This document shows positions 30,132 to 53,985 of a stretch of DNA of 64,000 bases, piece by piece. The first letter of the stretch is position 1. Every line of letters begins with the position of its first letter. Below the pieces are notes generated by a model that was not told where the DNA came from, ran no database searches, and worked only from the letters and a program-made list of their open reading frames with translations. Origin of the DNA: Hoylesella shahii DSM 15611 = JCM 12083. Its GTDB lineage: Bacteria > Bacteroidota > Bacteroidia > Bacteroidales > Bacteroidaceae. The stretch lies in the NCBI RefSeq assembly GCF_000613445.1, contig NZ_BAIZ01000004.1, positions 53,080 through 117,079 of the forward strand, given 5' to 3'. The position numbers and the translations under genes are program-made.

Positions 30132-30241
30132 GTTCCATGTTAGTTGGAATAGGATTCCAGTTCAATTGGAACTGGGTTCCAGATCAATTGGAACAACATT
30201 CCAACTTATCTGGAACATTGTTCCAACTGATCCAGAACAAA
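30132..30241. repeat. 22-base-period dyad array D
   Basis: Five units begin at 30132, 30154, 30176, 30198 and 30220, exactly 22 bases apart. Each holds TTCCA-N7-TGGAA (last unit degenerate), for example TTCCAGTTCAATTGGAA. The array lies 120 bases after the GtrA/DUF6080-like gene at the left edge of the AT-rich cassette. The rest of 30012-30725 holds only the promoter at 30462-30493 and no convincing gene. Confidence 0.9.
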
Positions 30242-30461
30242 CCATATTACGAAAAACGGCACAACGAAAGCTAAAAAGGGGCGAGGCGAAAGATAAAGAA
30301 CGGTGAGGCGGAAGGATAATAAGACACCTACTGCTATTAAATATTTAAGCGCTTCTCTATCTACTGACATTGTGGTTATACTAAAAACAATACCTGTAGT
30401 AAACAACAACAATTTGTCAATAAGAGAAGATTTCCATGCTATTCATTTTTTCTAGCATTAA

Positions 30462-30493
30462 GTTGTTCTCTTTATAGAAAAATGCTACCTTTG
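30462..30493 (+). promoter_or_regulatory. Promoter of the exporter operon
   Basis: GTTG at 30462-30465 is followed after 20 bases by TACCTTTG at 30486-30493. It would give a leader of about 225 bases before the HlyD gene. Confidence 0.65.
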
Positions 30494-30725
30494 CAAATAT
30501 AAACCCTTTAAATAATGATATAGCCACAAATTTTATATGCACACAAGAAACAATATTAAAAAATGTTGCTACACCACAAATGCGCTAAAGGCATAAAAGA
30601 TCAAATCACACTTTGTACAACTCCTCTTGTGTATTGGAATTTAAAATATATCAGATTTAATTATAAGGTGGAGTCAAATTTTTGTCCAACATAGAAGGTC
30701 TCATATCATTCTTAGAGCAGCAAAC

Positions 30726-31937
30726 ATGAAACAAGAATCTAAACTATTACCCACTGACTGGATTGTTGATAGCATTGAAACCTATATCTATCAACAACGT
30801 CCTAGAAAACGCATTATTTACATGATAGTGCTAGTTGCAATTATGTCTACCATCATTTCATTACCTTTTATTTATGTAGACATCACCGTCCAAAGCCGCG
30901 GTATAATAAGGCCAAGTGGAGAAGTAAGTCGCATCACAGCTCCTATGACGGAGATTGTTGAAACAATCCATGCCAAAGAGGGCGATGTATTGAGGCAAGG
31001 AGATGAGATTCTTAGATTCAGGACTGGGACTTCTGACGGGAAAATATCCTACCAGCGAAATCGCTTGGAAGATTTACGGGCACAAATTACCGATTTAACA
31101 CATTTGGTTAAGGGCGTCCCACCCACCATGTTTTCCTCAACAGTCCGCCAACAAGAATACTCCAAGTATCAACAAGAAATTCACCGATTGCAAACAGAAT
31201 TATGCCAATATGAAGAAGAATGGAAACGAAACAATGTCCTCTTCGACAAGAAACTTATAAGCGAGAATGAGTACAATCTGTATTATTACAAGTTTTTGGA
31301 TAAACAAAATGAACTTAATTCACTGAAAGCTAGCCAGCTTAGTATATGGCAAACTGAGTTGACTCGTTTGCGAACACAACAGGATGAAATAGTATCTAAT
31401 CTCACTGAGATAAACAATACAAAAACACTACATATAGTGAAGAGCCCCATCAATGGCACATTGGAACAATTTACAGGTATCTACCCAGGTAGCAATGTAC
31501 AAGCAGGTACAACCGTTGCTGTGGTAAGTCCCAATACGGCATTATACATTGAAGCATACGTTGCACCACGCGACATCGCTTTCATCACGGAAGGAATGCC
31601 TATTAAAGTACAGATCGAGTCATTCAACTACAATGAATGGGGTACATTAGACGGCACAGTGAAAAGTATATCCTCCGATTGCATTAACGACAATAATGGT
31701 CGTATATATTATAAGGTGAAATGTACGCTGAATAGGAATTATTTTGAACTGGGCAAGAACAATCGCAGGGGAATTATCAAAAAGGGCATGACAGGGATTG
31801 TACATTTTGTAGTTACCCGACAATCTTTATTTGCATTACTCTATAAAAGCATAGATGACTGGATGAACCCAACGCAACACCAATCACCAAATATCGTTTC
31901 ATATCATTTATCCCAACACATTAATGGCAATGTTTAA
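30726..31937 (+). CDS. HlyD-family periplasmic adaptor of a peptide exporter
   Basis: The protein has 403 residues: a short cytoplasmic part, one membrane segment (about residues 28-52), a lipoyl-like half (ITAPMTEIVETIHAKEGDVLRQGDEIL), a long coiled-coil hairpin (about 105-225), the second lipoyl half (IVKSPINGTL) and a beta-barrel domain. It links an inner-membrane ABC exporter to a TolC-like channel; no TolC gene is in the window. It overlaps the C39 exporter gene by 14 bases. Its codons are clearly AT-richer than those of the genes left of 30 kb. Confidence 0.93.
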   Translation: MKQESKLLPTDWIVDSIETYIYQQRPRKRIIYMIVLVAIMSTIISLPFIYVDITVQSRGIIRPSGEVSRITAPMTEIVETIHAKEGDVLRQGDEILRFRTGTSDGKISYQRNRLEDLRAQITDLTHLVKGVPPTMFSSTVRQQEYSKYQQEIHRLQTELCQYEEEWKRNNVLFDKKLISENEYNLYYYKFLDKQNELNSLKASQLSIWQTELTRLRTQQDEIVSNLTEINNTKTLHIVKSPINGTLEQFTGIYPGSNVQAGTTVAVVSPNTALYIEAYVAPRDIAFITEGMPIKVQIESFNYNEWGTLDGTVKSISSDCINDNNGRIYYKVKCTLNRNYFELGKNNRRGIIKKGMTGIVHFVVTRQSLFALLYKSIDDWMNPTQHQSPNIVSYHLSQHINGNV

Positions 31938-34083
31938 AAAAAGTATCAAAATCAAGCAACAGGATAATGCAGATTGTGGAGCAGCCGCATTAGCTTCTGC
32001 ATGTGCCTACCATGGTTTGAAGATCCCCATTGCTCGCATACGCCAATATGCTTTTACCGATAAAAAAGGCACCAACGTTCTAGGTCTAGTAGAAGCAGCA
32101 GAAAATCTGGCTTAAGTGCTAAGGGTGTACGTGCACTTCCTGAGGCCTTAAAGATGATTCCGTTACCAGCCATCGCACATGTTACTGTAAAAGAGATTCT
32201 CCACCATTTTGTAGTAATATACAAGGTTACCAACAAAAGTATTGAATATATGGATCCTGCCGATGGAAACATGCATCATACTTCGCATGAAGATTTTCAG
32301 CGTATATGGACAGGCGTATTGATTTTATTGGAACCCAAAGAAAATTTTATACGAGGAGACATGAAAAGCAACACAATACTTCGTTTCCTCCAACTATTAT
32401 ACCCACATAAAGCCTTAATGCTAGAGGTCTTGTTTGGAGCTATCATCTGTAGCATACTGGGCTTGAGCACCTCAGTATATGTAGGCAAAATTGTCGATTA
32501 TGTGCTAGTTGATGAAAATATTAATTTGCTCAATCTAATGGGGGTAATTATGATATCAATAACCCTTATTCGCATTTTTATATCGACAATAAAAAGCGTC
32601 TTAGCATTGAAAACCAGTCAAACAATTGATGCGACACTCATTCTCGGTTACTATAAGCACATTTTACACCTACCTCAACAGTTCTTCGACACTATGAGAG
32701 TAGGTGAGATTATCTCACGTGTTAATGACGCTGTGAAAATTCGCACATTTATTAACAATGTTTCAATCGAACTTGTAGTAAACATGCTAATTTTACTATT
32801 CTCAGTAGGTGTGATGTTCGTATACTCTTGGAAGTTAGCTTTGATAACCCTCATTTCAGCCCCTTTGTTTGTAGTAATATTTTTATTTTTCAATCACTTA
32901 AACAAAAGATATCAACGTAAAATAATGGAAACTACGGCAGACTTGGAGTCACAGCTTGTAGAGTCACTTAATGCTATTACTACAATCAAACGTTTTGGGA
33001 TTGAAGATCATGCCAATCTCAAAACAGAATCACGATTTGTACGTCTAATCCGCAATACATATATCAGTGCACGGGGTGGTATTCTGGCGAGCAATAGCAT
33101 TGATCTTGTCTCTTCCTCAGTTACAATAGCAATTCTATGGATTGGAAGTAATCTTGTAATCGACAAAACACTAACACCTGGAAGCTTAATGATATTCTAT
33201 TCCCTAATTGGTTATGTACTTTCACCTATAGGATCATTAATTACATCAAACCAAACTATACAAGATGCCCTAATTGCTGCGGATCGCTTGTTTCAGATTT
33301 TGGAGTTGGAAACTGAGGATCTCGATAATACTTCAAAAGCAAATTTAGAAGCAGGAGTAATTGGCGATATCACTTTCGAGAACGTTTCTTTTCGATATGG
33401 CTCACGGAAACAAGTTTTCACTTCACTTAATCTTACCATACCAAAAGGCCGTACAACTGCAATTGTTGGTGGAAGTGGATCAGGAAAGACAACACTCATC
33501 TCGTTGCTCCAAAACATTTATCCTATACAATCAGGACATATATATATAGGAAAATTTGACATCGGGATGGTGACAAATGAAAGTCTACGCCGTATTGTCG
33601 GGACTGTTCCTCAGAAAATAGAAATGTTTGCGGGCACACTTCTTTCCAACATCTGCCTTGGCGACCTACAGCCCGATATGCATAGTACTTAACATCATAG
33701 ACCAGCTGGGATTAAAAGATTTTATCAACGGATTACCCCATGGATTAAATACCTTCATCAGTGAGCAAGGCACAACACTTTCAGGTGGAGAATGTCAACG
33801 GATTTCTATTGCTAGAGCTCTGTACAAAGAACCTGAGATATTGATTTTTGATGAGGCTACATCCTCACTAGATTCCATCTCAGAACAGTTTGTAAAACAA
33901 ACGCTTAAAGATTTGGCTGATGCAGGAAAAACCATTATAGTGATCGCCCACCGACTAAGTACTATCAAGGATGCAGACATGATAGTCGTTATTGATAATG
34001 GCACAGTCGCAGAATGTGGAACTCATCGTGAGTTAATTTCTAAAAACGGAGTGTTCGCCCACTTATGGCATGAACAAGTCTAA
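31924..34083 (+). CDS. Bacteriocin-type ABC exporter with C39 peptidase domain (two frame breaks)
   Basis: The repaired protein has about 720 residues. Residues 1-130 are a C39 peptidase: catalytic Cys18 in QQDNADCGAAALAS, His in HHFVVIY, Asp in YMDPADG. It cuts double-glycine leaders. A six-segment membrane domain follows, then an ABC ATPase with Walker A GGSGSGKTT, signature LSGGECQRISIARALY, Walker B ILIFDEATSSLD and HRLSTI. Break 1 at 32108-32111 is a missing G (CTGGCTTAA should be CTGGGCTTA). Break 2 at 33681-33687 is best explained by two lost bases in an AGAG repeat, restoring PDMHRVLNIIDQLG. All catalytic elements are present, so the gene is probably intact in the cell. The likely cargo is encoded at 34473. 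Confidence 0.92.
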
Positions 34084-34385
34084 GCATAGGTAAAAATAGA
34101 AAATTATTGAGGATGATTTATAAACTAGATATATTGTAAACGCAATAAACACTCAAACTTTCAAATAGCGGAGACAACTGTTCATCAGTCCGTTATTCTT
34201 GACTAAAAGACATAGATAGCTACGATTTATATTTCTGTAAAATGTTGTTGGCTATCTGATCAGTAGCAATGTTAAATCATACAAAATCCTTCGATTTCAG
34301 CAATACTCCCAACACTTACACGCATCGATTATATAAAAAAAGTTATTTTTATCCTGGAAAAACAATAAAACCAAATTAAAAACAT

Positions 34386-34393
34386 TATATTTG
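34386..34393 (+). promoter_or_regulatory. -7 box of the prepeptide gene
   Basis: TATATTTG matches TAnnTTTG and lies 80 bases before the prepeptide start. No clear -33 element. The region 34084-34385 shows no gene. Confidence 0.5.
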
Positions 34394-34429
34394 CACAATA
34401 GAATGATATGGATCTTTTGTAAGATATCA

Positions 34430-34454
34430 CTGCAGGAAACTCCTGCAGATTTTT
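34430..34454 (+). promoter_or_regulatory. Hairpin with T run in the prepeptide leader
   Basis: CTGCAGGA (34430-34437) pairs perfectly with TCCTGCAG (34441-34448) across a 3-base loop and is followed by ATTTTT. It lies between the -7 box and the start codon, so it could be an attenuator, or a 5' stabilising structure. Confidence 0.55.
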
Positions 34455-34472
34455 AACTAAAAACCAATAACA

Positions 34473-34604
34473 ATGAAGAATTTAGAAAATGCTTATGTAA
34501 GCGAATTATCAAAGGAAGAAATGCAGAGTATTAACGGAGGATTTCCTTGGTTGGTTGCAGGATTAATATTAGCTGGACTTTTATACAGCCAAAAAGCTTA
34601 TTAA
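34473..34604 (+). CDS. Double-glycine prepeptide, candidate bacteriocin or signal peptide
   Basis: This 43-codon gene encodes a leader MKNLENAYVSELSKEEMQSI then NGG, and a 20-residue core FPWLVAGLILAGLLYSQKAY. The leader fits the class II double-glycine pattern (L-S-x-E-E-M-x-x-I-x-G-G), the substrate type of C39 peptidases such as the exporter just upstream. The core is very hydrophobic with a Gly-rich middle and an aromatic, basic end, like a short pore-forming or membrane-active peptide. It lacks Cys, so it has no disulfide or lanthionine bridges. It has its own -7 box and leader hairpin and is followed by a strong terminator. A pheromone role is possible. I do not recognise it as a described peptide. 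Confidence 0.88.
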   Translation: MKNLENAYVSELSKEEMQSINGGFPWLVAGLILAGLLYSQKAY

Positions 34605-34668
34605 GGTTATCCTACAAAAGGGAACTGTCGGTTGTAATTATGGTTAACATATGTTACGACCCAAAATT

Positions 34669-34702
34669 TGTCAAAGAGAGCCCTCTCTCTTTGACATTTT
34701 TT
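34669..34702 (+). terminator. Terminator of the prepeptide gene
   Basis: TGTCAAAGAGAG (34669-34680) pairs perfectly with CTCTCTTTGACA (34685-34696) across a CCCT loop, followed by a T6 run. Confidence 0.93.
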
Positions 34703-34839
34703 ACAAGAAAATCCTTTGGTGGCTTATAGAATTTAGACTGTTTAGAATAGCTAAATAACCTAAACATCAACTACATAATAAAACAATTAACGACGGGTGA
34801 TGATTTTTAGTTGACGTCTTTTCTATCCAAGATAGAATC

Positions 34840-35772
34840 ATGATCAAATTATATCTTCAATTTAGGTTAAAATCTTTGCTTCGTCTTTGCAAAGAAGTAG
34901 GGATATTTGCATGTACAATATTACTTTTCATTATTTTCATACTTATAGGTATAACAACAAATGCCCCGAGATATTATACAGTTCTTCTATTTGGCGCGAT
35001 GGTCTTGTCGTGGCATTTCTCACGGTCTGATACTATTTTCCTAAATACACTTTTCGGTAAAAAGTACATCTACATCTATCATGTAGAATATTTTATCCTT
35101 TCTGTCCCCTTCATTTTCATTCTGCTAAGTAAAAGTTCTTGGATTGGAATTATAGCTGTTTTATTGCTAAGCACTATTGTTCCATTTCTTGTTAGGAAAA
35201 CTTTCTCATTTCCTTTGCCTACTTTTCCATTCTTAATAGAAGGAAGTTATAAATATCAACGTTTAGGACGTATGCTTCTGCCATTCTATATTATAATACT
35301 TGTAATTTCTAGCATTGCAGTCTATGTCCATAATATTAACCTCGTGTTCATTACAACCCTAATAACAACGGCAACAATTGGCATGTCCTTATGTATTCAA
35401 GTTAATCCACAATACATTTTCAATTATAAGAGTTCCATCTTCTTCCTGAAGTTAAAATGCAAACATGCTTTTGTCAATGCAGGGGTAATGCTTGCTCCAA
35501 TGATCTTGTATCTTTGGCTTGTAAACGTATCATGGGGACAATTATACCTATGTATTTTATCTTACATCGTTATTTCCTTGTTCTTTATCCAACTGGAGTT
35601 TCTTCGGTTTATCTTTGGCAATAACGACCTAACCATATTTATTGCATTCTCCATACTGCTTTGTTTATTGACTGTTTCAATCATGCTCCCCATATTCTCA
35701 CTGCTCTCATTATTACTCACCATATTGTTTTCCTATAAAGTATTATTGTTTCTCAAAAAATATATTTCATGA
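34840..35772 (+). CDS. ABC-2 type permease, probable peptide immunity
   Basis: The protein has 310 residues and about eight strongly hydrophobic segments, with little extramembrane sequence. No family motif is recognisable beyond an ABC permease layout. Its stop overlaps the next gene's start by 4 bases (ATGA), and that gene is an ABC ATPase, so the two form one transporter. Such pairs beside bacteriocin genes usually protect the producer by removing peptide from the membrane. AT-rich codons match those of the exporter genes. Confidence 0.75.
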   Translation: MIKLYLQFRLKSLLRLCKEVGIFACTILLFIIFILIGITTNAPRYYTVLLFGAMVLSWHFSRSDTIFLNTLFGKKYIYIYHVEYFILSVPFIFILLSKSSWIGIIAVLLLSTIVPFLVRKTFSFPLPTFPFLIEGSYKYQRLGRMLLPFYIIILVISSIAVYVHNINLVFITTLITTATIGMSLCIQVNPQYIFNYKSSIFFLKLKCKHAFVNAGVMLAPMILYLWLVNVSWGQLYLCILSYIVISLFFIQLEFLRFIFGNNDLTIFIAFSILLCLLTVSIMLPIFSLLSLLLTILFSYKVLLFLKKYIS

Positions 35773-36446
35773 TACTGGTACGCAATCTTTCAAAGTCTTT
35801 TTGGAGAAACTCCGTTTTAGAAGACATCAATTACACCTTCAGTGCAGGCAAGATATATGGAATTATGGGTGAGAATGGTGCAGGGAAAAGTACATTGTTT
35901 AAGTGTATTATGGGGCAGGAAAGCTATAACGGCGAAGTAATTAAGCCAAAGCCATTAAGGGTTGGTTATCTAAACGACACACCTTTCTTCTACTCTTTTG
36001 TCACAGGAATGGAATATATTACGTTCTGCTTGAAGGCTCGGAATTTACAAATTAACAAACAAGAGATCAATAAACTGAATGAAAAATTCGCTTTACCGCT
36101 AGAGAAATACGCAACAAGCTACTCCCTAGGCATGAAGAAAAGACTGATGATTTTAGGCTTAATGCTTCAGAATAACGACCTCGTTATTATGGACGAGCCA
36201 TTCAATGGCCTTGACCTCACTGGCTCAATTATATTAAAGCAATGGATTAATAGAATGAAAAAAGAAGGGAAATGTGTGATTCTATCTTCTCATATTATCT
36301 CTGTACTAACTGAAATTTGTGACGACATCTCATATATTCATAATGGCAAAGTCGTCGCCAACTACTCAGGGAAATCTGCAGGAGAGATAGAACAAAGCAT
36401 CTCTAAGTTATATTTCAATATAGAAAAAGACATGGATTTACCATGA
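35769..36446 (+). CDS. ABC transporter ATPase, probable peptide immunity
   Basis: The protein has 225 residues with Walker A GENGAGKST near residue 35, Walker B LVIMDEPFNGLD, and SSHIIS as the switch-His region. The signature is YSLGMKKRL rather than LSGGQ, a variant typical of BcrA/McbF-like self-protection ATPases. It pairs with the permease just upstream. It is the last gene of the AT-rich cassette; 62 bases later the base composition returns to that of the envelope cluster. Confidence 0.85.
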   Translation: MILVRNLSKSFWRNSVLEDINYTFSAGKIYGIMGENGAGKSTLFKCIMGQESYNGEVIKPKPLRVGYLNDTPFFYSFVTGMEYITFCLKARNLQINKQEINKLNEKFALPLEKYATSYSLGMKKRLMILGLMLQNNDLVIMDEPFNGLDLTGSIILKQWINRMKKEGKCVILSSHIISVLTEICDDISYIHNGKVVANYSGKSAGEIEQSISKLYFNIEKDMDLP

Positions 36447-36508
36447 GGTTTATCTCTTTCAGATCATAACCGAAACCGCAAGACATATATAACATATAGT
36501 TAGAACAC

Positions 36509-37854
36509 ATGTTCAAACTAAGAAAAGAAGAAAAACCGCTGGCCTTAGTGGCCTTCTTGGTATTTGCATTGCAAAATGCACTCACCGTATATAAGTACCA
36601 CGACCTTTTTACTCGCGTGGGCTTTAGGGGTTATTGGGTGTTGTTTCACGAGATTTTTCACGTCTCGGGGTTTGATGCCTACTCGTGTATCTACCTCTCT
36701 AACGGCAAGATATACTACGAACTCTCACGCCATCCGCTATTCGGTCCGTTGCTTGCACCCTTCTATTGGCTCAATGATGCCATCATCAAGCAATTCGATT
36801 TCAACGCCGCCATCTACATCATGGCCTTGTTGCTAACACTCAGTGCCACCCTCAGTGCAGTGCTTTTGTTTCGCATCTTGCGTTCGCACATTGGCTTAAA
36901 GCTGATAGATGCCCTCGCGCTCACTGCGCTATTGTTCTCGTTTGCATCGATAATGTTGGCCGTCATGCTACCCGACCACTTTTGTTGTTCGCTGCTGTTA
37001 CTCGTTCTAACACTCTATATCGCCAACGACCATCACCTCAAAGGCGAGGCCTTGGCTTGGTGGCAATCGGCCTTACTACTGCTCTTTACGGCTGGAATAA
37101 CAATAAGCAACGGTGCTAAAACCATGCTAGCCGACCTCTTTTGCACTGGTAAAGCCTTCTTTAAACCACGCCGCTTGCTACTGGCTTGCGTGCTTCCGCT
37201 GGGAATTTTGGGAGCAGCTTTATATGCACAATACACACTTCAACTGCTGCCACGCGAACAAGAGTCGGCACGAATAGAGGCACAAGTGCAAAAAATGAAC
37301 CCCAATGCCATCAAAAAGAGCACGGCTCACGAAGCCAGAAAGGAACGTATTATTGGAAAACCCATGGGCAACGACCCCGTACTTAAATGGACCGACAAAG
37401 ACACACCGCGACTTTCGTGCGTGGTGGAGAATGTGTTTGGCGAGAGCATTATGCTGCATCGCGAACATCTTTTAGAAGATTTATTTATCTCGCGCCCTGT
37501 TGTTGTGCACTACGAACATTGGCTGTTCTATGCCGTGGAAGCTTTCTTAGTGCTGCTTTTCGTGGTGGGTTTGGTGTTCGGCCTTCGCCAAAAACTATTG
37601 CAAATATGTTTGGCGTGGCTGGGCGTTGACTTTGTTTTGCATATTATCATGGGCTTCGGACTGAACGAGGCTTACATCATGGGCACGCATTGGCTCTTTA
37701 TTATCCCTCTTGCCATGGCCTTTTTATTTAAAAAAATGCCTGCAAAACCAGCCCTCGTACTGCGATTTAGCATCGTGCTCTTGCCCTTTTGCTCTACATT
37801 TACAATCTCTGCTTGGTGTTCCAATTCATGTCTCACCCCCTAACCGTTGGCTAA
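36509..37854 (+). CDS. DUF6080-like polytopic membrane protein, candidate GT-C glycosyltransferase (frame break)
   Basis: The protein has about ten membrane segments and is the free-standing homologue of the second part of the gene at 28153: HVSGFDAYSC, SRHPLFGPLL, LPDHFCCSL, ISNGAKT, VFGESIMLHREHLLEDL are shared. The raw frame ends at 37843 with an unrelated tail; one C restored in the CCC run near 37784-37786 gives LLLYIYNLCLVFQFMSHPLTVG, which matches the homologue's C-terminus, and a stop at 37852-37854. The next gene then starts at the very next base. The conserved His/Asp-bearing loops at the outer face suggest sugar transfer from a lipid carrier, but no activity is known. Confidence 0.78.
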
Positions 37855-41291: not shown

Positions 41292-41358
41292 CCGTGTTAT
41301 GAATAATCAAGGATGGACATTTTTCCTTCCACTCCTCTTTTATACACACACAAACGAT

Positions 41359-41395
41359 AAAGGCGTACTGTTTTTGTTAAACTGTACGCCTTTTA
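41359..41395 (+). terminator. Terminator after the nuclease-helicase gene
   Basis: AAAGGCGTAC (41359-41368) pairs with GTACGCCTTT (41384-41393), followed by T and A. Confidence 0.75.
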
Positions 41396-41478
41396 AGGTA
41401 TAGGTCATAACTGGACCAACTGTTTGTTGTATCTCCCACATTGGGTAAACTTTAGTACCCAAATACGTTTAACAAGTT

Positions 41479-42114
41479 TGTTAAATCGGGTAATTATATT
41501 TTACAAAACATCCCTTCCAAAACAAACCCTTCTAGAGAAAACAGATGCTCAAAAGCAGGATTTTTCCCTATTTTTTGGAGGTTCTGCATTTATTTTTACA
41601 CCATTTTTGCGCACCATATCGGCATTTTGCACCATTTAGCCCTTCTAGAAGGAGTCTGGAACGGAAAATTTCACCGCCCAGAAAACCGCTTTTAGTCGTC
41701 AAAAAGCACCATTTTTGGCCACTTTTCACTCAAAATCCCCACAGTTTTTCGTCATTCAGTCTACCATAAATTCCTCAAAAAGGTGCAAAATGCATCATCT
41801 TATGCTGTGTTTTGCTGCATTTAGCACTGCGTTTTGTAGGAGATGGCACTGCGTTTTGCACGAGATAGCACTGCGTTTTGCACGAGATAGCACTGCATTT
41901 TGTAGGAGATAGCACTGCATTTTGCTGCATTTAGCCACTTTTTTAGCAAAAATCACGGATTATCTCAACGAAAATTCGGTTTATCGCCATTCACAAACCT
42001 TGTTCATTTTCACCCAAACAAACCTTCGCGAGAATCGATTATTTGCGAACGAATGGCAGTTGGTGAGCAAAAATGGCACTCACAATGTTAAATTTCATGC
42101 CGTTAATTTTACAT
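41479..42114 (+). repeat. Intergenic 0.63-kb element, copy C
   Basis: This element is bounded by direct repeats TGTTAA-N14-TTTTACA (41479-41505) and TGTTAA-N15-TTTTACA (42086-42113). TTCTAGA lies at about 41530 and again near 41644. GCATTTTGCACCATTTAGCC at 41622-41641 is identical (inverted) to copy A at the same offset of 143 bases. ATGGCACTCACAATGTTAAA at 42073-42092 is identical to copy B. A 22-base-period array is at 41802-41938. Short open frames across it do not match between copies. The remaining gap to 42383 shows only a possible hairpin and no gene. Confidence 0.78.
41802..41938 (-). repeat. 22-base-period array in element C
   Basis: Units begin at 41802 (degenerate), 41824, 41846, 41868, 41890 and 41912, with a partial one at 41934, exactly 22 bases apart. 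The plus-strand core is GCACTGCGTTTTGCACGAGA; on the minus strand it contains TGCAAAACGCA, the same dyad TGC-N5-GCA as in element B. Confidence 0.9.
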
Positions 42115-42383: not shown

Positions 42384-42851
42384 TTAATACTCGGTTTTCT
42401 CCACCTTCTCTTCCCACATTTTAAAAGCATTAATGGCCTCCTCGGGCAACAACAGCTCCATATTTTTGCTGCGTTCGCTAGGTTTAAGTGCTATTTCATG
42501 GTAGATGAAATCATCGTCGAAACCGATGTTGGCGGCATCTTCACGGTTATTGGCATAGTAAATGTTATCCAGTCGCGCCCAATAAATAGCACCAAGACAC
42601 ATGGGGCAAGGTTCGCACGAAGTGTAAATGTCGCACCCAGCGAGGTTAAACGTACCCAATTTACGGCTAGCCAATCGTATAGCACTCACTTCGGCATGTG
42701 CCGTTGGGTCGTTATCGAGCGTAACGCGGTTAGCCGCTTCGGCCACAATCTCGCCATTTCGGGCAATCACAGCGCCAAAAGGGCCACCACCATTATTCAC
42801 ACTTTCTTCGCTCAAGGCAATGGCCCTGCGCATCAGTTCGTTGTTGTTCAT
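42384..42851 (-). CDS. guaD: Guanine deaminase-like nucleoside/nucleobase deaminase
   Basis: The protein has 155 residues with the zinc-binding, catalytic motif HAEVSAI (His and the proton-shuttling Glu) and PCPMCLGAIYWAR, plus the tail FDDDFIYHEI typical of the small bacterial guanine deaminases (B. subtilis GuaD type), which turn guanine into xanthine. TadA would instead carry an adenosine-34 recognition tail, which is missing. It lies 2 bases after aat and is probably co-transcribed with it. Confidence 0.87.
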   Translation of the reverse strand: MNNNELMRRAIALSEESVNNGGGPFGAVIARNGEIVAEAANRVTLDNDPTAHAEVSAIRLASRKLGTFNLAGCDIYTSCEPCPMCLGAIYWARLDNIYYANNREDAANIGFDDDFIYHEIALKPSERSKNMELLLPEEAINAFKMWEEKVEKTEY

Positions 42852-42853
42852 TT

Positions 42854-43498
42854 CTATTCTTGCTGTATAATCTTAAGGTAATCGTCGTAATGAATGAAGC
42901 GTCCACCCATCGAGCGCAGGTGAGCCGTTTCGAATTGGCAGTCGATGAGCAAGCCTTCATGTTCGTGCATGTAATGCGCTAAGAAGATAAGCGCAAGCTT
43001 ACTGGCACTAGGAACAAGCGAAAACATACTCTCGCCAAAGAAGCATCGGCCGATGGTAACGCCATAAAGACCACCCACAAGGCGGTCGCTCTGCCACACT
43101 TCAACGCTGGCTGCAAAACCCTGTTCGTGCATTTTGCGGTAGGCTTTCATCATATCAACGCCCAGCCAAGCACCCTCTTCTTTGATACGCAGACGGCTAC
43201 AATGTTTCAGCACATCGTCGAACTGCTGGTTAAACGTAACATTGTACGTGCCCTTATTAATTAAGGAGCGCATAGAGTGCGACACATGCACCTCTTCGGG
43301 GAAGATAACAAAGCGCTCCATGGGGCAATACCAAAGTATTTTTCGGTTATAACGGAAAGAGTACCAAGGAAAAATGCCATAGCTGTAGGCCAGCAACATG
43401 CGGTCTACAGAAAGGTCTCCGCCAACGGCTAGCAAGCCATCGGGTTCTCCCAAGTGTGGGTCGGGAAACCAAAGTGTTGAATCAAGCGCGAACACCAT
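42854..43498 (-). CDS. aat: Leucyl/phenylalanyl-tRNA-protein transferase
   Basis: Aat adds Leu or Phe from aminoacyl-tRNA to N-terminal Lys or Arg of proteins, creating a primary N-degron for ClpS/ClpAP. The product (214 residues) has FPDPHLGEPDGLLAVGGDLS at the N-terminus, YSYGIFPWYS, the GAWLGVDMMKAY segment and GGLYGVTIGRCFFGESMFS, all classic for the family. It lies downstream of clpS and clpA on the same strand, so writer, adaptor and unfoldase of one pathway are together. Confidence 0.96.
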   Translation of the reverse strand: MVFALDSTLWFPDPHLGEPDGLLAVGGDLSVDRMLLAYSYGIFPWYSFRYNRKILWYCPMERFVIFPEEVHVSHSMRSLINKGTYNVTFNQQFDDVLKHCSRLRIKEEGAWLGVDMMKAYRKMHEQGFAASVEVWQSDRLVGGLYGVTIGRCFFGESMFSLVPSASKLALIFLAHYMHEHEGLLIDCQFETAHLRSMGGRFIHYDDYLKIIQQE

Positions 43499-43709
43499 AG
43501 TATAATAGGAATTTGGTTAACACCATCCGCGCGCTGCCCCAGTACATAAGCAGGTGTGTGGCCTGTGGAGACAAGCTCCAGCATAGCGCGCAGTATTCCC
43601 CCCTCAACGACCTTTTCAGCCCATTGTACGCGTAAAGAATGCTATATGTAGAAACAAACTTGGGCATTGCGAGAGAGATATTTTAAAACGATGTTAGCGA
43701 TAGTGCAGC

Positions 43710-45992: not shown

Positions 45993-45997
45993 AATGA

Positions 45998-46300
45998 TTA
46001 CCCAGGTTGACAGGTTAAACGTAAAGGGTAGCCTGCTTGGCGTGCCATAACAGTGGCTTTTCCCACTTTAGACATAGCCACATCGTAGCTATAAACGCCC
46101 ACAACGGCTTTATCACTTCGGTGTACGGCGAGCATGAGCGATTCGGCTTCTGCATCTGACTTAAAGAACACAACCTTTAATATCATCACGACGAAATCCA
46201 TTGTGGTGAAATCATCGTTATGAATTAACACCTTATACTTGCGCGGCTCGTGCAGGTTGGTACGCACACGCTCTCTAATTGCTTCTTGTTGCTTTGCCAT
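45998..46300 (-). CDS. clpS: ClpS adaptor of the N-degron pathway
   Basis: The protein has 100 residues with the ClpS hallmark LIHNDDFTTMDFVV, where Asn-Asp and following residues hold the substrate's N-terminal amine, then VHRSDKAVVGVY and the C-terminal core. The unstructured N-terminal arm that binds ClpA is present (residues 1-22). It heads the clpS-clpA-aat-deaminase run. Confidence 0.96.
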   Translation of the reverse strand: MAKQQEAIRERVRTNLHEPRKYKVLIHNDDFTTMDFVVMILKVVFFKSDAEAESLMLAVHRSDKAVVGVYSYDVAMSKVGKATVMARQAGYPLRLTCQPG

Positions 46301-47002
46301 ACTGCTGCAAATATAGCGCGAAAGCTTGAAAGATCAAAACTTTTTAGCGTAAATCATTATGTATAACTGCAGTTTTTCGGATTGTGATACAACCTAACAG
46401 CCATCGGGAACAACATTCGCTCGATCGACACCCATAACAGTAGGTGTTTGCTTCTCTAATCCCTATCGCACAAGGATATGTTTCTTAGGTATTTTCATCG
46501 GTTAATTTCGTTGCTTTTTTAGTTATACAACAACACGAAAACAGACCAATTCTATGCCAAAGATTATGAACAGCATCCTTATTTATTGCTCCCCTCTTCT
46601 TAGTATACACGAAAGAAAGGTGTGTAAACATTTACCTAAATTTCGGTATTGCACAACTTGTAAATTATTAAGACCTTTGCAGCAATTTCTAAACGTTATA
46701 TTATCTAACAGCTGCAAATGTAAATAACAATGCCTGCAACACCTGTTGGCAACAAGAAAGCGTCTGATTAAGACACCACTCACCAACGTTTACAAGTAAA
46801 TACTACGTTTATCTACAAACGTTACATACCTGCAACGCTTATATATAATAAGGTATAGGCATGTTTGGCGAAATTCTTAAACAGGCAAACTGCAACTACT
46901 ACACACCGACCCGCAGATAACGAGCCGGCCAAAACGGCCCCTTTCGAGAGGCCATTACTAATTAATAGGGAAACAATAACTCTACGTTATCTAGAAACCA
47001 AT
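46301..47002 (+). promoter_or_regulatory. Upstream region of the TonB-receptor locus
   Basis: No gene was recognised. The receptor frame is open back to 46865, but that part does not look like a signal peptide. A near-match to the -7 box, GACCTTTG, is at 46672-46679 with CTTG about 20 bases upstream. The stretch 46780-46860 contains several ACGTTTA/AAACGTT words, possible sites for an iron or other regulator; this is weak. Confidence 0.35.
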
Positions 47003-49433
47003 ATGAAATTAAATGAAACAAACAAAAGGTGCACTGCCCCTTGGGCTTGTTATGCTCGGCATGTGGCACTGTTCTTCACCCTTGCCTTGTGCTTAACGGG
47101 CATGCCATTGTGGGCCTATGCCACAGAAAACGTGTGCCTGCAATCCCCCACCAGCGATGATGCCACCATTCAAAACGTGGTAGTAGTGAGCGAAAGTTCT
47201 GGCGAACCCATTGCTGGTGCTGTGGTTAGATGCAACGCGGCCTTTGCTCCTGTAGTAACAGATGTTAATGGCCACTGCCAACTTAAACTAAAAGCCAATA
47301 CCGAAAAGGCTAGAATTGAGGTATCCTCAGTGGGTTTTAAACGGCTTGTGCGCTCGTTTGCGCCCTCCCTTTCGCAAACACTTACGCTAAAAATGGCCGA
47401 CGATGCCAAGATGATTGGCAACGTTGAGGTGACGGCAATGAAACGCCATACCAACCAAATGCAACAAACGGCGACTATAGGAAGCGATGCGCTGGAGAAA
47501 GGTGGAGCTACTTCGCTGGCCAAACTGCTTGAAGCGGTGCCGGGTGTAAGTTCTATCAGTACTGGCAACACCATCGCCAAACCTGTTATTCAGGCATGCA
47601 CAGCAGCCGAATTTTGCTTATGAACAACGGTGTTAGACTGGAAAGCCAAAGCTGGGGGGCCGACCATGCGCCCGAACTAGACTATACGGGGTCGAGTATG
47701 GTTGAAGTGGTGAAGGGTGCCGAATGCATTCGCTATGGCTTTGGCGCCATGGGTGGCGTGGTATTGCTTAACGATGCACCACTGCCTTGGGGCAATAAGC
47801 GCCTTACCACTAAGGGAAACGTAAACTTGGGCTACGACACCAACGCACGAGGCGCTAGCGGTAGCGCCACTGTTGAGGCAGGTTATGGTCGCTGGGGGGC
47901 ACGAGTTCACGGCATGTACACCAAAGGTGGCGATTACAGCACGGCAGATTATCGCCTTAACAATACGGGATATAACACCATTAGCCTATCGGGGATGCTG
48001 GGCTACGAAGGCAAACACATCACGGCCACAATCTTCTCTAGCATTTATTATCAACGAAGCGGCATCTATTACGCCAGTAAGGTGAGCGACTTAGACCAAC
48101 TTGTGAAACGCTTTGAGTACGGACGACCCGACCCTCAAACCATTCAACCCTTTTCTTACGAGATTAAACCACCTTTCCAACAGTCGCAACACGTCACGCT
48201 AAAGGGCGAACTGAAATGGCGACTCAACGCCAATCATCAGGTGGATTTCACACTGTCGTTTCAAGAAAATCTGCGTCAAGAGTTCGAAAATCGTAAGAAA
48301 GCGCAATGGAGTTGGATACCCATGCAAGACCTCATTCTTAAAACATACAAGGGAGATGTGTTGTGGCACGCCAAATGGAAACTGTGGAAAATGACCACCG
48401 ACGCAGGACTTTCTAACACTTATCAAACCAACTATAACTACCCTGCACCAAACAGCCTGCCTTTGTGCCCAACTTTGCAGCCCTCTCCATGGGTGGATAC
48501 TTCTTACACAAGGCAGAATGGGGCAAGCTGCAGATGGCTTTGGGTATGCGATACGACTTCCGCGTGATGTCGGTTAACGGCTATACCAGTTTGAGTAACT
48601 ATACTTATTACGACGATTTTAAACTTTATAGCAACTTCACCGCTAGCCTGGCAGGCCATTATCAGCTTAACGATAACTGGGATATGAGGGCGAATATCGG
48701 TTGGTCGTGGCGTCCACCAGACATCAATGAACTGTATGCCATCGGCCTTCAAGAAGGCTCTTACTGGGTGATTGGCAACAGACACCTGGCCAGCGAACGA
48801 GGATATAAATCGGTGGTGGGCGTGAGATATCGCAACACGTGGTTCAATATCGAACCCAGTTTCTTCTACCAACGCATCAATAGTTATATATACGACCACA
48901 TCGGAACGGGCAAAGACCGATTTCATAACCACCCTAGCGGCAAGTATCCCAAGTTTATTTACGACCAAGATGATGTGCAACTAACGGGTGGCGACATCGA
49001 AGCTACTGCCAAACCTTTTGAAGGACTCACCCTCGTGGCTAAAGGAGAATGGATGTTTGCACGCAACATCACCCGCAACGACTGGCTGCCCTTTATGCCA
49101 TCCGACCGCTATGGACTATCGGCCACCTACACCCGACTGCTCAATAAAAGCGGTAAATGGCGCGCAACGCTGTCGCTATCGGGAATATATGTAACGAAAC
49201 AAACGCGATTCGACCCCGATAAAGACCTGGTTAGCGACTCGCCCGACCCCTATTTCTTGCTCAACGGCACCGCCGAAGTGGCTTGGCGAATGCCCCAACA
49301 CCGCGAACTAAAACTGATGCTCGTGGGCGATAATGTGCTGAACAACCTTTATAAGGAGTACACCGACCGCTTTAGGTACTACGCACACGAACGTGGAGCC
49401 AACTTCTCTCTGCGAACGCTCTTTAAATTCTAA
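47003..49433 (+). CDS. TonB-dependent outer-membrane receptor (two frame breaks)
   Basis: The repaired protein has about 810 residues. Order: signal peptide (cleavage near LWAYA), a carboxypeptidase-regulatory-like domain (VVSESSGEPIAGAVVRC), plug domain (LLEAVPGVSSI, GADHAPELD, VVKGAECIRYGFGAMGGVV) and a 22-strand barrel ending FSLRTLFKF. Break 1 at about 47593 and break 2 at about 48463 are each repaired by one base (GG to GGG, TTT to TTTT). The ATG at 47003 starts a proper signal peptide and is preferred over 46865. It lacks the SusC N-terminal signature and has no SusD partner, so it probably imports a metal chelate or cofactor. Three lipoprotein genes follow on the same strand. Confidence 0.9.
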
Positions 49434-49472
49434 AGACGTCGCTACTTCAACTATCACATAACAAGAAACGCT

Positions 49473-50924
49473 ATGCTACACATATCATTTAAAAATGCTG
49501 CTGCAACGCTAGGCTTTATGATTCTTGCCTCTGCCTGCAGCAACGAACAGGTGGACGATTTCTTTAAAAAAATTATCCAAGCTCCTCCTTCGTCTATCGA
49601 AAGAGACGTGAAAGGACACGACCAGATATACAGCGTGCACGCCATTTTAAGAATGGGATATAAAGGCGGACTTATCGGTGTTGGACCGAATGGCGACGAC
49701 TCCGTAACCGTTTACAACACATATCACGTGGCTACAGATAGCACCGTGGTGCCCATCACGCAAGAAATAGACATCGTAAAAGACGATAACGGAGAGATGA
49801 CCGTCACAACGAGCCGACAACAATTTGATGTTGTGGCTGCACCCAACATCTATTATGGACTGGAATTGAGGTATTACGACCAAAACGGAATGCTCATCAA
49901 TCACCAATTCTCGGCCTATCCCTTCATCAAAGATAAAGATGGGGTGAGTGTTCCTGACGAAAACACCTCTACACTGATGATGCACCAACACTTTTTTGGC
50001 ATTGGCAACACCACGCTTGCTGCCGACGACTCGCTGAAACTTAACTCCAGCGCTGCGCAACAAGGCTTGCAACTGGCCTACCCACGCACACTTACACAGC
50101 CCGCCACCTACATCGACCGATACACTTTTAGGGAAGATGGCGGACAGGCTGTTGCTGCCACCAAGTTCTCGGCCACAAATATCTTTGCGCCCAGCAACTT
50201 TGGCTATGGCCAAAACAATGTGGTGTACAACCCCGAACTTGCTTGGAAGGCCATAGAACGCTCTGGAAAGCCCGAAGCTACACAGCCTTACACCGCTGAC
50301 GATGGCAAAACATACAACCTTTTTAGGGTGATTGACATGATGGAACTAAATAAACTAACACCAGAAGTGTTTACCTACGAGTATAGAGACACCGACCCCG
50401 TGGAGGAAGAATTGGGAAAACTCTTCGTTGACTCGTACAACGACGACTTTACCGACCCCGACACTGATGCACCAAGGCAACGCTACGGAGAAACAGTGGG
50501 ACTGCTAAGGCAAGCACGAAGCTTAGATGCCGGAGCACCATTAGACAGACTGGGCTTTAAAGGCGTGCTGCAATTTAAGCTGGCCCACATCTGTTTTTCG
50601 CTACAAGTAAAGATTTGTAACATCCTTAATAAAGGTCAACAGCACGTGGGCGAACCCGAAAAGCCAGCCAAATACGTGAATGCTGCCAATAGCGAAAATG
50701 GTTATCTATGGGACTTTAACCAAATTCAGTCGGGATGGGACAGCTTCGACATCGACTATCCCCTACCCGTTAGAGTGATTGCCGATGTGAAAGACGGACA
50801 AGAGAAATGCGTTGCCGATGCCAAACGCTTCTATCCCAGCATCGACGCTGCACAACTTTGGATGCTGCTTACACAGCCTTCTTCCTTCTTTTACAAACAT
50901 CGCAGAAGTGTGGTGGCCATGTAA
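49473..50924 (+). CDS. Lipoprotein of unknown function in the TonB-receptor locus
   Basis: The protein has 483 residues with a lipoprotein signal peptide ending ILASACSN (Cys22). It has beta-rich composition and no enzyme motif. The segment TYEYRDTDPVEEELGKLFVD is similar to YTYRDTWIHDAMGDGARELF in the next gene's product, so the two are probably distant paralogues. It starts 39 bases after the receptor gene. A surface-exposed ligand-binding partner of the receptor is the most likely role. Confidence 0.82.
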   Translation: MLHISFKNAAATLGFMILASACSNEQVDDFFKKIIQAPPSSIERDVKGHDQIYSVHAILRMGYKGGLIGVGPNGDDSVTVYNTYHVATDSTVVPITQEIDIVKDDNGEMTVTTSRQQFDVVAAPNIYYGLELRYYDQNGMLINHQFSAYPFIKDKDGVSVPDENTSTLMMHQHFFGIGNTTLAADDSLKLNSSAAQQGLQLAYPRTLTQPATYIDRYTFREDGGQAVAATKFSATNIFAPSNFGYGQNNVVYNPELAWKAIERSGKPEATQPYTADDGKTYNLFRVIDMMELNKLTPEVFTYEYRDTDPVEEELGKLFVDSYNDDFTDPDTDAPRQRYGETVGLLRQARSLDAGAPLDRLGFKGVLQFKLAHICFSLQVKICNILNKGQQHVGEPEKPAKYVNAANSENGYLWDFNQIQSGWDSFDIDYPLPVRVIADVKDGQEKCVADAKRFYPSIDAAQLWMLLTQPSSFFYKHRRSVVAM

Positions 50925-50988
50925 TTAGCCACAAAAGGCCTAGCCCAAGAGGTGAAGGCCATAACATTCAACTACAATAAACAGACTC

Positions 50989-52456
50989 ATGCACTATATA
51001 AACCTATCCGACAGCGCACATAAGGCGCAACAACAGCCTGCCAAACGCTGCCTTCGCACGCAAATAATGGCTGTTTTGGTGGCCATAACTGCCTTAACCA
51101 CTCTTGTGGCTTGCGACGATTTCGTGTTCGGAAACGTGAACATCAACTACAACGACAACCCTCTTGAGGCCAAACCCATACCTCATAGCGGAGCCGACAA
51201 GTACGTTGATAGCTTAAAAAAAATACACATCGCCGAACCTCTTACTAATAACGACCCCAACGGCGCCTTCGCTAATTGGGCTACTTGCTTGGCAATGTTC
51301 AAAGAAGGTCACTCGCATGGCGATGGATGATGCACGGAAACTTTGTGTATCACAATGCTCCCTGGCGACAAGAACAGTTCGCTATTATCCACAACAACAA
51401 CGCTACATGGCCCGATGTGCAGGTGCAAAAACAAAGCACTGTTACCTATCTAGAACAGTATGCTGGCAAAGAGGGACCTAACTACATTCGCATCATTGGC
51501 GGACGACTGAAGCGATGGGGATTGTGTCTCTATTTCTTCGACAAAGATGGTAAGCTAATGAACGACGATATTCTAAACCACTCCGACGAATATCAAATAT
51601 TCTTCACCGTTAGCGATGTAGACGATAAAGGAAACCCTTACGAAATAACCGACTGCCGTGGCACTTGGCACCCCAAACGCAATAGGTTTGGCGAATGGAA
51701 AAAAGGCGGAACGATTGACAATACGCCCGTTGCTTCGCCTTTCTTTGCCGACAAAACCACCTGGAAACAACGAGCCGACGCCACACCAAAGATTTTTGAA
51801 TACACCTATCGAGATACTTGGATTCACGATGCTATGGGCGATGGCGCTCGCGAATTGTTTAATCAAAGGTTGCTCGCTCCCTTAACACGAAAGGATGCCG
51901 ACTGGGCTGTGGCTCCCTACGACCAAGACCGCGTGGACTTAAAGGACACTTTAACTTCGACCTCGATGCCGATGAGAACGACGACTTGCATAGCGAGTGG
52001 CCACTGGAAATTACAAAACGCACCGACCCCGCCACTGGCGAGGCTGGAAAATACACACGCCCTTCATACCTGCTGCCACAATTCTACCTCTCGGTGAGGG
52101 TGATGAAGTGTCCTAAAGGCAAAAAAGCACTCATACCACGCAACGAATATCTGCGCCGACACTCAACCTACGAGTTTATTAGTGAACTTATCTGCGCCGA
52201 CTGGTACAACCCCGACGAGCCAAAAGACTATGGTGCCGACTCGCAATGGCAAGAGGTGATACGCTTTAACATTCCCATAAAGGTGTATTGCAGCAGCTTC
52301 GACACCGACCCAACGGCCATCGACCCCAACGACCCGTTCTATTATTACCTGGGACTTGAAATTGGATTAACACCCGCCGAAGCACTCGAAGCCTCGCAAA
52401 ACCTGCAAACCCACGGCGTGGGCGGTGGCTCGGGATTTGGAAACTGGTTTCTATAA
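50989..52456 (+). CDS. Second lipoprotein of the TonB-receptor locus (two frame breaks)
   Basis: The repaired protein has about 489 residues. A signal peptide ends TTLVACDD (lipobox Cys43 when counted from 50989; the ATG at 51067 gives a shorter signal peptide). It contains a His/Gly-rich stretch GHSHGDG then MMHG exactly at the first break. Break 1 at 51324-51326 is a missing G; break 2 at 51939-51944 is a missing T or A, restoring DFKGHFNFDLDADEN. The His-rich stretch would suit metal or heme binding. It shares the YxYRDT motif with the lipoprotein upstream. Function unknown. Confidence 0.78.
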
Positions 52457-52511
52457 CCTGCTCATAAACGCTTGACACAACGCTTCAGATAACAATTAAC
52501 AACAAAACAAC

Positions 52512-53573
52512 ATGAAACAGCTTGCAACGCTCATGCTCCTTGCCTTGCTTACAGGATGCGTGCGCAACGAATTGCCCGTTAAACAGTCGAACGCTAAAAC
52601 CAAGGTCGACCACCTTATTATTAAAGAGGTGTTCTACATTGGCCACTATTGGGTGCGCGATGTGAGGCAATGGGGCTTTAAAAACAATAACAATAACTAC
52701 AACGACGACCAATATATCGAGATTTATAATCCCACCGATGAGGTGCAATATCTCGACAATTTGGCCCTCTGCGCACACGCCATCGACCCCACAAAGGTTA
52801 TCACCTTCGCCCCGAAAGACGATTTTGTAAATCGCTATTACGGCATTAATGCACTTGCTTATTTCCCTGGAAAAGGTAAAGATATGCCCATACAACCCAA
52901 ACATTCTATCATCGTTGCAAAATATGCCGTAGACCATAAGGCTGCTTTCGAAAAAGAATTGGAAGGCGAAGACTTGTCGATGTACAAGGGCTTGGAGGCT
53001 TTTCTCGACCTGCGCAAGGCCGACTTTGAATGGACTAATGCCGACTACGACCACTCGGGTAAAAACAATCCGAACGTGCCAGACCTGCAAGCAATCATGA
53101 CCAGAAAAGACCAACGCGGGAATATCTTACCCTCGTTCGACCTGCAAGAGGTGTCGGAACATGGCGGTATTGCACTCATTAAGTTGCCGTGGACTCCCGA
53201 AGACTTTGCACAAAACTATAAAGAAACAAAAGACAAACCGGGCTATCTGCACTATATCACTATCACGAGCAGTGCCTTTGCCGACTTTGAGGCAATCGAA
53301 ATTCCGTTTGCCGATGTGATAGATTGTATCACCATTTGCCCCAAAAGCCAATTTCAAATGCGACCGTGCAAACTGGATAAGGGCTATAACGCCGTTACCG
53401 ACGTGCCGTTTGTCAGCATAAAAAATATTGATTACCCCACTTATTCGGGATTGGCGCTTACTAGACGCTGGGACGGTAGAAAGTTTGTTGACGACGATAA
53501 CACCAAAACCGACTTCAAAGTGCAAGTGGCTTCGCTCTCAAGGAAAGACGATAAGGGCAACCCCATTAAATAA
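52512..53573 (+). CDS. DUF4876-type lipoprotein
   Basis: The protein has 353 residues with a lipoprotein signal peptide (LALLTGCVRN, Cys17). The N-terminal half shows LIIKEVFYIGHYW and DQYIEIYNPTDEVQYLDNLALC, the lamin-tail-like beta fold of Bacteroidetes DUF4876 proteins, which are usually found next to TonB-dependent receptors. It contains a run of nine Asn/Tyr-rich residues (NNNNNYNDD). It is the last gene of the locus, followed by a strong terminator. Confidence 0.85.
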   Translation: MKQLATLMLLALLTGCVRNELPVKQSNAKTKVDHLIIKEVFYIGHYWVRDVRQWGFKNNNNNYNDDQYIEIYNPTDEVQYLDNLALCAHAIDPTKVITFAPKDDFVNRYYGINALAYFPGKGKDMPIQPKHSIIVAKYAVDHKAAFEKELEGEDLSMYKGLEAFLDLRKADFEWTNADYDHSGKNNPNVPDLQAIMTRKDQRGNILPSFDLQEVSEHGGIALIKLPWTPEDFAQNYKETKDKPGYLHYITITSSAFADFEAIEIPFADVIDCITICPKSQFQMRPCKLDKGYNAVTDVPFVSIKNIDYPTYSGLALTRRWDGRKFVDDDNTKTDFKVQVASLSRKDDKGNPIK

Positions 53574-53681
53574 TTGCACGTCGATAATTTGATGTTCCCG
53601 TCTACATTCCTTATCTTCTGCACACTGTTGATAAAAGTTTGTTGCTTCAGGGTAAAAACTTTTTTATAAGCTAGTAACAAC

Positions 53682-53718
53682 AAGGGCTGACACTTCGCAC
53701 GAGGTGTCAGCCCTTTTG
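53682..53718 (+). terminator. Terminator of the TonB-receptor locus
   Basis: AGGGCTGACAC (53683-53693) pairs perfectly with GTGTCAGCCCT (53704-53714), followed by a T run. Confidence 0.93.
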
Positions 53719-53809
53719 TTTAGCTTTAACCCAAATGGTTATTAGAGCATAAACAGATTATGTTTTAATGTCGAGCAGATTGCCTGTCGTTATAATGTGG
53801 TTCTACAGG

Positions 53810-53985
53810 CAACTAATCTCCTTATACAACACAACTAATCTCGTTATACAACAGATAATGCACAGTACAGGCTATCTTGTACTGCTACTACAAGTCACTT
53901 GTACTGCTACTACAAACGGCTTGTAGTGCCAGTACAAGGTGCTTGTAGCAATGCTACAATCAACTTGTACCACACTCTATAGCCC
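53810..53985. repeat. 22-base-period dyad array E
   Basis: Eight units lie in one unbroken 22-base register: 53810, 53832, 53854, 53876, 53898, 53920, 53942 and 53964. The first two share CAACTAATCTC and TTATACAACA; the third is degenerate; the last five start CTTGTA, and the clearest hold TTGTA-N7-TACAA (for example TTGTACTGCTACTACAA). It lies between two converging terminators, in a region with no gene. Confidence 0.9.

Follow-up and report, generated by a model that had tools for sequence, protein, structure and literature searches.

Plasmid iterons are direct repeats of about 22 bp that are bound cooperatively by a replication protein. The nearest known system to the arrays described here is BrickBuilt of Porphyromonas gingivalis, an intergenic miniature inverted-repeat transposable element (MITE) which, according to the accessible part of its description, has a tandem core of 23-nucleotide units together with a leader and a tail and occurs in 19 copies in strain ATCC 33277 (PMC4596501). 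The same text lists 41-nucleotide repeats of P. gingivalis (MITE464/PgRS) and 22-nucleotide direct repeats of strain W83. Cyanobacterial transposons carry A-tracts phased at approximately 11 bp, which were proposed, in the available portion of PMC4132750, to help transpososome formation, while repetitive extragenic palindromes (REPs) are given in the excerpted text of PMC3733652 as 20 to 40 bp long, with tagged ends and dimer spacers mostly of 20 to 100 bp. The subject of this work is a set of intergenic arrays of 22-bp units in a 64,000-nucleotide stretch of Hoylesella shahii DSM 15611 (contig NZ_BAIZ01000004.1; the whole stretch is called the window). With a probability of about 0.5, these arrays represent two kinds of intergenic DNA element sharing a 22-bp module of two helical turns: class I, which is likely to be mobile, and class II, which is likely to be a docking site for protein.

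Local autocorrelation over periods 5 to 60 found period 22 at exactly five loci in the window, and Tandem Repeats Finder (TRF), used as second method, agreed. Both, together with division of the arrays into 22-mers, confirmed what had been noticed by an earlier reader working from the letters alone (the sequence-only reading): five arrays, each at exactly 22 bases and at the named loci, with one short dyad in each unit. The arrays are:

9803..9892, + strand: array 1, four 22-bp units of TGC-N5-GCA type, the clean units covering 9803-9890
19757..19866, no strand assigned: array 2, five 22-bp units of TGC-N5-GCA type
30132..30241, no strand assigned: array 3, class II, five units TTCCA-N7-TGGAA-N5
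41802..41933, - strand: array 4, six 22-bp units of TGC-N5-GCA type
53874..53983, no strand assigned: array 5, class II, five units TTGTA-N7-TACAA-N5, the last partial

The count of 4 to 8 units given earlier was too generous, since 4 to 6 clean units are present and none of the arrays reaches 8. The palindrome chains of arrays 3 and 5 have arms separated by 7 and by 5 bases. The remaining periods in the window are due to simple 8-mer repeats, to the multiple 44 and to a CTTACT tract near 11.2-11.3 kb.

The arrays reach far beyond the window, into the rest of its own genome and other Prevotellaceae. The own genome (G000) is a draft of 3.49 Mb in 142 contigs with a completeness of 92%; as its RseP is 86% identical to that of Hoylesella loescheii, it was taken as a member of the Prevotellaceae close to that species. 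The window and 40 further stretches (864 kb, 25% of the genome) were compared with 80 loci of other Prevotellaceae (1.43 Mb, the relatives), with 20 stretches from other families of the order (352 kb) and with 20 from other orders or classes of the phylum (400 kb). Genes were called by a home-made script and intergenic tallies take one best period per array; TRF counts take coding and intergenic DNA together. In the own genome 38 arrays had period 22 and no other period from 10 to 60 had more than two, the harmonic 44 excepted. Period 22 was best in 38 of 48 intergenic arrays of the own genome and in 37 of 82 from the relatives, where the other best periods included 44 (five arrays), 66 (four), 88 (two), 33 (two), 21 (one) and 23 (one), with none at 11 or 55. 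A genome-wide scan had been proposed with the sequence-only reading, and on this quarter of the genome the dominance of 22 left that reading standing. Two relatives sampled at 200 kb each, G016 and G024, had three and two arrays of period 22; there were none in the 352 kb from other families or the 400 kb from other orders and classes. TRF gave the same picture: period 22 accounted for 39 of 93 repeats of the own genome (period 21 for eight, period 23 for two), for 59 of the 190 listed from the relatives and for none of the 34 from the other families, orders and classes sampled. The excess held with three other window sizes, and block-shuffled sequence of own genome and relatives had no array at any period from 15 to 45. 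Among the arrays of the relatives, two run into called genes and a few have low sequence complexity.

Spacing is kept in these arrays while sequence changes, as the sequence-only reading had claimed for the window; the scans and TRF bear this out both in the own genome and across Prevotellaceae. Units in the relatives have many different sequences, along with some common families (TTGTA, TTCCA, L061/L076 and L102/L105/L110; L and G numbers denote loci and genomes). A search for the TTGTA family that put no constraint on either gap gave 66 parsed matches in the own genome, with gaps of (7,5), for a period of 22 bp, 47 times, (7,6), for a period of 23, 16 times, (6,5), for a period of 21, twice and (9,7) once. 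The gaps were (7,5) in 17 of 17 matches in G028, and in G026 and G003 together 15 of 18 matches totalled 22 although the split varied: (7,5) ten times, (10,2) three times, (9,3) once and (8,4) once. In eight genomes of other families 37 matches were spread over 16 to 26, five of them at 22. For the TTCCA family in G035 the gaps were (5,7) in 22 of 22. From these counts it is the sum of 22 that is mostly kept. Beyond the three-unit core, 95 of 153 flank hits in the own genome and 52 of 115 in the relatives were in phase, offsets of ±1 and ±2 being about as rare as other offsets. The claim that units repeat without drift is supported to the extent that phase drift is small; some steps of the TTGTA family in the own genome are 23 bp. 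With the same reservation, half-site spacing is fixed independently of the other bases, as expected of an array bound cooperatively by protein. By eye, the 23-bp steps often lie at array ends; 23 is also the period of BrickBuilt.

Dyads recur in arrays outside the window. Of 48 arrays from the relatives, 31 had a whole-unit dyad symmetry above that of column shuffles (P ≤ 0.01), and paired columns were better conserved than unpaired ones in 22 of 28 (P = 0.0018).

Arrays 1, 2 and 4 each occupy the middle of an element from a dispersed non-coding family of about 620 to 635 bp (class I), whose flanks, compared with the arrays masked, are homologous and have sharp limits. This family membership, seen in both flank homology and ends, means that the window lacks the five independent arrays that had been supposed. 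The elements of the window are:

9573..10208, + strand: class I element copy 1 (636 bp), ends at 9573-9600 and 10182-10208, containing array 1
41479..42113, - strand: class I copy with array 4 (635 bp), left end 42086-42113, right end 41479-41505
19510..20131, - strand: element of a second class I subfamily (622 bp) containing array 2, its end at 20104-20131 exact
19510-19535, - strand: other end of the array 2 element, degenerate, 26 bp, read by eye

On the left the element ends in TGTAAA-N15-TTTAACA (28 bp), on the right in TGTAAA-N14-TTTAACA (27 bp). Twenty-two copies were aligned, 12 of which were chosen as having both ends with at most one mismatch per end; the ends are present in all 12 and, partly degenerate, in most of the 22. 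Lengths of the two-ended copies were 613 bp (one), 634 to 637 bp (eight) and 655 to 658 bp (three), that is, in steps of about 22. The flanks are 59% identical pairwise, with one gap run per 48 substitutions under the strict gap penalty used. The element of array 2 has its ends in common with other class I copies and little of its flanks, which are common to at most four other own arrays; its A-runs have a phase of 10.9 bp. Exact class I end sites number 138 in the own genome (0 for the reversed pattern), and TGC-N5-GCA-N11-TGC-N5-GCA has 157 matches (1 for the reversed pattern). By extrapolation from 32 arrays in 864 kb, a genome would contain about 130 arrays of class I. Arrays of the own genome, mostly class I, are in excess between convergent genes: convergent gaps of at least 200 bp contain an array in 15 of 41 cases, versus 21 of 210 other gaps (P = 7e-5; home-made gene calls).

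A-runs in the right flank of class I, outside the array, recur at 10.8 bp with a power of 21.7 (2.1 when shuffled, 2.9 in other intergenic DNA). For array and flanks together, A-run power was 15.5 to 41.7 in 32 of the 38 own arrays, which are class I, and 5.0 to 14.9 in the other six. Phased A-runs were rejected as a general cause of arrays, as the relatives' array flanks have an 11-bp power of 2.0, below the 2.6 of other intergenic DNA; phasing seems to be confined to class I. The predicted bend of class I copies, calculated from wedge values, has a mean of 0.39, against a background median of 0.18. A coding role for the flanks was considered and rejected, no flank frame being open in all 12 copies. 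Imperfect terminal inverted repeats (TGTAAA/TTTAACA), dispersed copies and the lack of a shared open frame are traits of MITEs, and class I is probably a phased, non-autonomous mobile element. Among 60 relatives, class I ends were well above the reversed control in G016 (66 sites) and G012 (13 sites). In three end pairs of G016 the distance between the ends is 356, 356 and 379 bases; a called 22-bp array is present in one pair, and two have an A-run peak at 11.0 bp.

Class II comprises arrays 3 and 5 and those of the own-genome loci L035, L134 and L144, which are without class I flanks and have weaker A-run phasing. Array 3 has no flanks in common with other own arrays and no strong A-run phasing; array 5 (window_53870) has short flank matches to at most four other own arrays. 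These two arrays stand for the type found across Prevotellaceae, and they are likely to dock a dimeric protein, whose binding is predicted to be cooperative and to recur every 22 bp. Beside them lie two smaller features:

30265..30319, no strand assigned: weak second 22-bp array beside array 3, 2.5 units, of other sequence than array 3
53810..53853, no strand assigned: two 22-bp units in front of array 5, differing in sequence from the TTGTA array

The start at 53810 given earlier for array 5 belongs to the latter two units and not to the TTGTA array itself. Elsewhere, two or three 22-bp arrays of differing sequence follow each other within one intergenic gap (L118 17488-17839 and L119 18108-18321).

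Slippage might generate such arrays with no selection on spacing and no bound protein, if the replication or repair machinery of Prevotellaceae set the length of 22 in neutral minisatellites. Array lengths do change in steps of about 22, among class I copies and between the orthologous arrays L061 and L076, which differ by exactly one 22-base step. Variability is even over the columns in most arrays, and those of the relatives have no clear orientation bias (29 between co-directional genes, 7 convergent, 4 divergent, 2 in genes and 1 at an edge). Yet there is no known reason for slippage to pick 22 in differing sequences, with 21 and 23 rare in intergenic DNA, and slippage does not account for the excess of dyads or the better conservation of their arms in relatives. 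It is also at odds with L124, where a 12-bp palindrome is kept every 22 bases although the approximately 10 bases between copies are mostly different, and with the lack of such arrays in the other groups sampled. A neutral origin is considered unlikely.

The position of arrays 1, 2 and 4 within a MITE-like element raises the question of whether all arrays are internal minisatellites of BrickBuilt-like MITEs, 22 being a by-product and free-standing arrays decayed elements. P. gingivalis indeed has 23- and 41-nucleotide repeats in MITEs as well as 22-nucleotide direct repeats, as far as the accessible part of PMC4596501 describes them. However, arrays 3 and 5 and those of L035, L134 and L144 have few if any flanks in common with other own arrays, and many of the relatives' arrays have a gene no more than 200 bp away, so that an element of this kind would hardly fit. 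This makes a BrickBuilt-like origin of every array rather improbable.

If transcribed, the arrays would form the chains of hairpins envisaged in the sequence-only reading, acting as terminators, stabilizers or protein-binding RNA. Palindromic units do lie near the 3' ends of genes: 15 of 36 placed arrays of the own genome are between convergent genes. RNA hairpins would favour G-U pairs, but in 37 arrays between co-directional genes the arm mismatches on the gene strand were 53 G-U, 60 A-C and 141 other, so that there is no sign of RNA pairing. Neither the spacing of 22 bases, which has no reason in RNA, nor the relatives' lack of clear orientation bias agrees with such a function, and an Rfam search of the window matched only a tRNA at 730-804, with nothing at the arrays. 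Hairpin chains are very unlikely, and action at the level of DNA, as a two-turn module, is favoured.

REPs moved by RAYT tyrosine transposases, or a CRISPR-like array (clustered regularly interspaced short palindromic repeats), are scarcely credible sources: intergenic palindromes are many, the TTGTA family contains GTAG and L124 alternates its palindrome with about 10 mostly different bases, but G000 (assembly completeness 92%) has 0 Y1_Tnp matches, which makes REP/RAYT unlikely for the own genome, class I copy 1 has no match in plasmid and phage collections, and the 22-bp units are contiguous, with partly conserved spacers and no unique ones of CRISPR size, in agreement with the earlier exclusion of CRISPR. 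Ten flanking or near-flanking open reading frames (ORFs), with the ORF at 42384-42851 beside array 4 left out, had no Pfam cas match.

Two kinds of element sharing one 22-bp module remain the preferred reading. In class II, a protein dimer would cover two turns, contacting a pair of half-sites at distances of about 10 and 12 bp, and neighbouring dimers would touch each other; under this proposal arrays could grow or shrink solely in whole 22-bp steps, so that spacing would be policed while the recognized bases drift. Fixed spacing and dyads support the idea of cooperative protein binding put forward in the sequence-only reading, although no binding protein was found and cooperativity stays something we infer, as do protein binding, mobility, the role in synapsis and a common factor behind both classes. 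The earlier equation of 22 bases with two helical turns agrees with the 10.8-bp phase of A-runs in the right flank of class I, but phasing alone fails: odd multiples of 11 are nearly absent among Prevotellaceae intergenic best periods (33 twice), while 22, 44, 66 and 88 occur. This dominance of even multiples suits a dimer rather than mere helical phasing. In class I, phased A-runs may ease folding so that the ends of the element meet in helical phase (synapsis); this would account for changes of its length in steps of two turns, and it resembles the role proposed for the phased A-tracts of cyanobacterial transposons (PMC4132750).

A number of results weigh against this reading. No protein that binds any array was found. 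HU-HIG proteins were tried as candidate binders and genome counts gave no link: the own genome has 4 matches, genomes of the same genus 2 to 30 and those of other families mostly 1 to 6, with two at 12 and 17. A single mechanism for both classes is proposed rather than demonstrated, and the division into classes is blurred by L134, a borderline class II array near class I with an A-run power of 14.9. About a quarter of TTGTA steps in the own genome (16 of 66) are 23 bp, and TRF lists period 21 in 21 repeats of the relatives and eight of the own genome, coding DNA included. The dyads are less marked in the own genome, where the whole-unit test reached P ≤ 0.01 in 12 of 38 arrays and conservation of paired columns was unclear (24 of 36 arrays, P = 0.08); a concentration of variability in few columns (P ≤ 0.05) was confined to 3 of 28 arrays from the relatives and 6 of 36 from the own genome. 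With regard to class I, the left flank lacks clear phasing (peak 10.1, power 5.5) and the raised bend does not exceed that of shuffles in which A-runs are preserved (median 0.28, 90th percentile 0.39). Across the 12 copies, exact direct repeats flanking the element measure 2 to 4 bp or are missing, and no transposase with matching ends was found, a partner not having been sought systematically. The 22 own copies had no BLAST match in 140 loci (the 80 of the relatives and 60 others), stretches of G016 included. The elements of G016 resemble class I in architecture only: their 11.0-bp peaks (power 11.4 and 12.0) are just below the 99th percentile of random windows (12.2), and the third end pair peaks at 8.2 bp.

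A broader picture, tentative and on balance doubtful, is of a DNA-architecture system of Prevotellaceae in which the conserved code is distance, not sequence. Fast-evolving dimeric proteins would coat palindromic arrays at a fixed pitch of 22 bp, and phased mobile elements would have adopted the same pitch. One spacing rule over so many sequences and species is unusual; in bacteria that form a major human-associated group, it points to a protein lattice or a duplication ruler not known so far. It could link the unexplained 22-, 23- and 41-nucleotide repeats of Porphyromonas with those of Prevotella, and class I would clearly exemplify phased A-runs within an element that is mobile-like and non-coding. 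A literature search, with subscription papers outside its range, found no title on 22-bp arrays in Prevotella.

Class I copy 1 is situated between convergent genes for a peptidase M50 (RseP-like) and an ABC transporter ATPase, and array 5 is also between convergent genes. Arrays of differing sequence lie downstream of rseP in several species, for which no conservation of position is claimed. In the corresponding gap of H. loescheii (L049 11378-12740), where the window has class I copy 1, there are a 22-bp array of the TTCCA type and, besides it, a longer tandem repeat whose unit includes CCAACTACCGCGTAGCGGTTGG; BLAST found no trace of class I in this gap.

Four intergenic arrays of G016 have a period of exactly 41 bp and four different sequences (L193 15063-15263; L194 24-122, 168-353 and 498-628), most of them with a long palindrome, and 41-bp arrays also occur in three relatives' loci (L050, L058 and L085). 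Among 2.9 million viral contigs, the patterns of three families matched 12, 1 and 35 stretches; 25 of the 48 loci hold a period-22 array by autocorrelation, as expected from how they were chosen. Intergenic palindromic arrays of period 22 on contigs classed as viral include L227 2869-2974 and L211 6692-6798. Elsewhere in the window, a DUF6080 protein at 28153-30011 is split over two overlapping ORFs (28153-29535 and 29406-30011) in the manner of a frameshift. Simple tandem repeats CTTACT/CTTACCAC with a 7-8 bp unit occupy 11203-11369 and 63818-64000, and similar tracts are found at L030 17584 in the own genome and L049 13653 in H. loescheii.

Compared with plasmid iterons, which are similar in unit length, there are here many chromosomal arrays of differing sequence. 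REPs are likewise intergenic palindromes in many copies, judging from the excerpted text of PMC3733652; the 22-bp pitch and the lack of a Y1_Tnp match in the own genome set the present arrays apart. The A-tract signal of cyanobacterial transposons is in transposase genes, according to the available portion of PMC4132750, whereas class I is non-coding and has a 22-bp array. MITE464/PgRS and the repeats of strain W83 are likened to the present ones by length alone, 22 and 41 being the unit lengths found here and in G016. BrickBuilt, as described in the accessible part of PMC4596501, is also a dispersed intergenic element with imperfect tandem units in its middle and no coding sequence. Its leader and tail have counterparts in the flanks of class I only and not around arrays 3 and 5. 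Its unit is 23 nucleotides long, while the period is 22 in all five arrays, and its IS5-like terminal repeats are GAGACC, where class I ends in TGTAAA...TTTAACA. It forms one sequence family, and that part of the source mentions neither phased A-runs nor unrelated arrays with one period. Since ends and unit length differ, class I works like BrickBuilt and is not a member of it.

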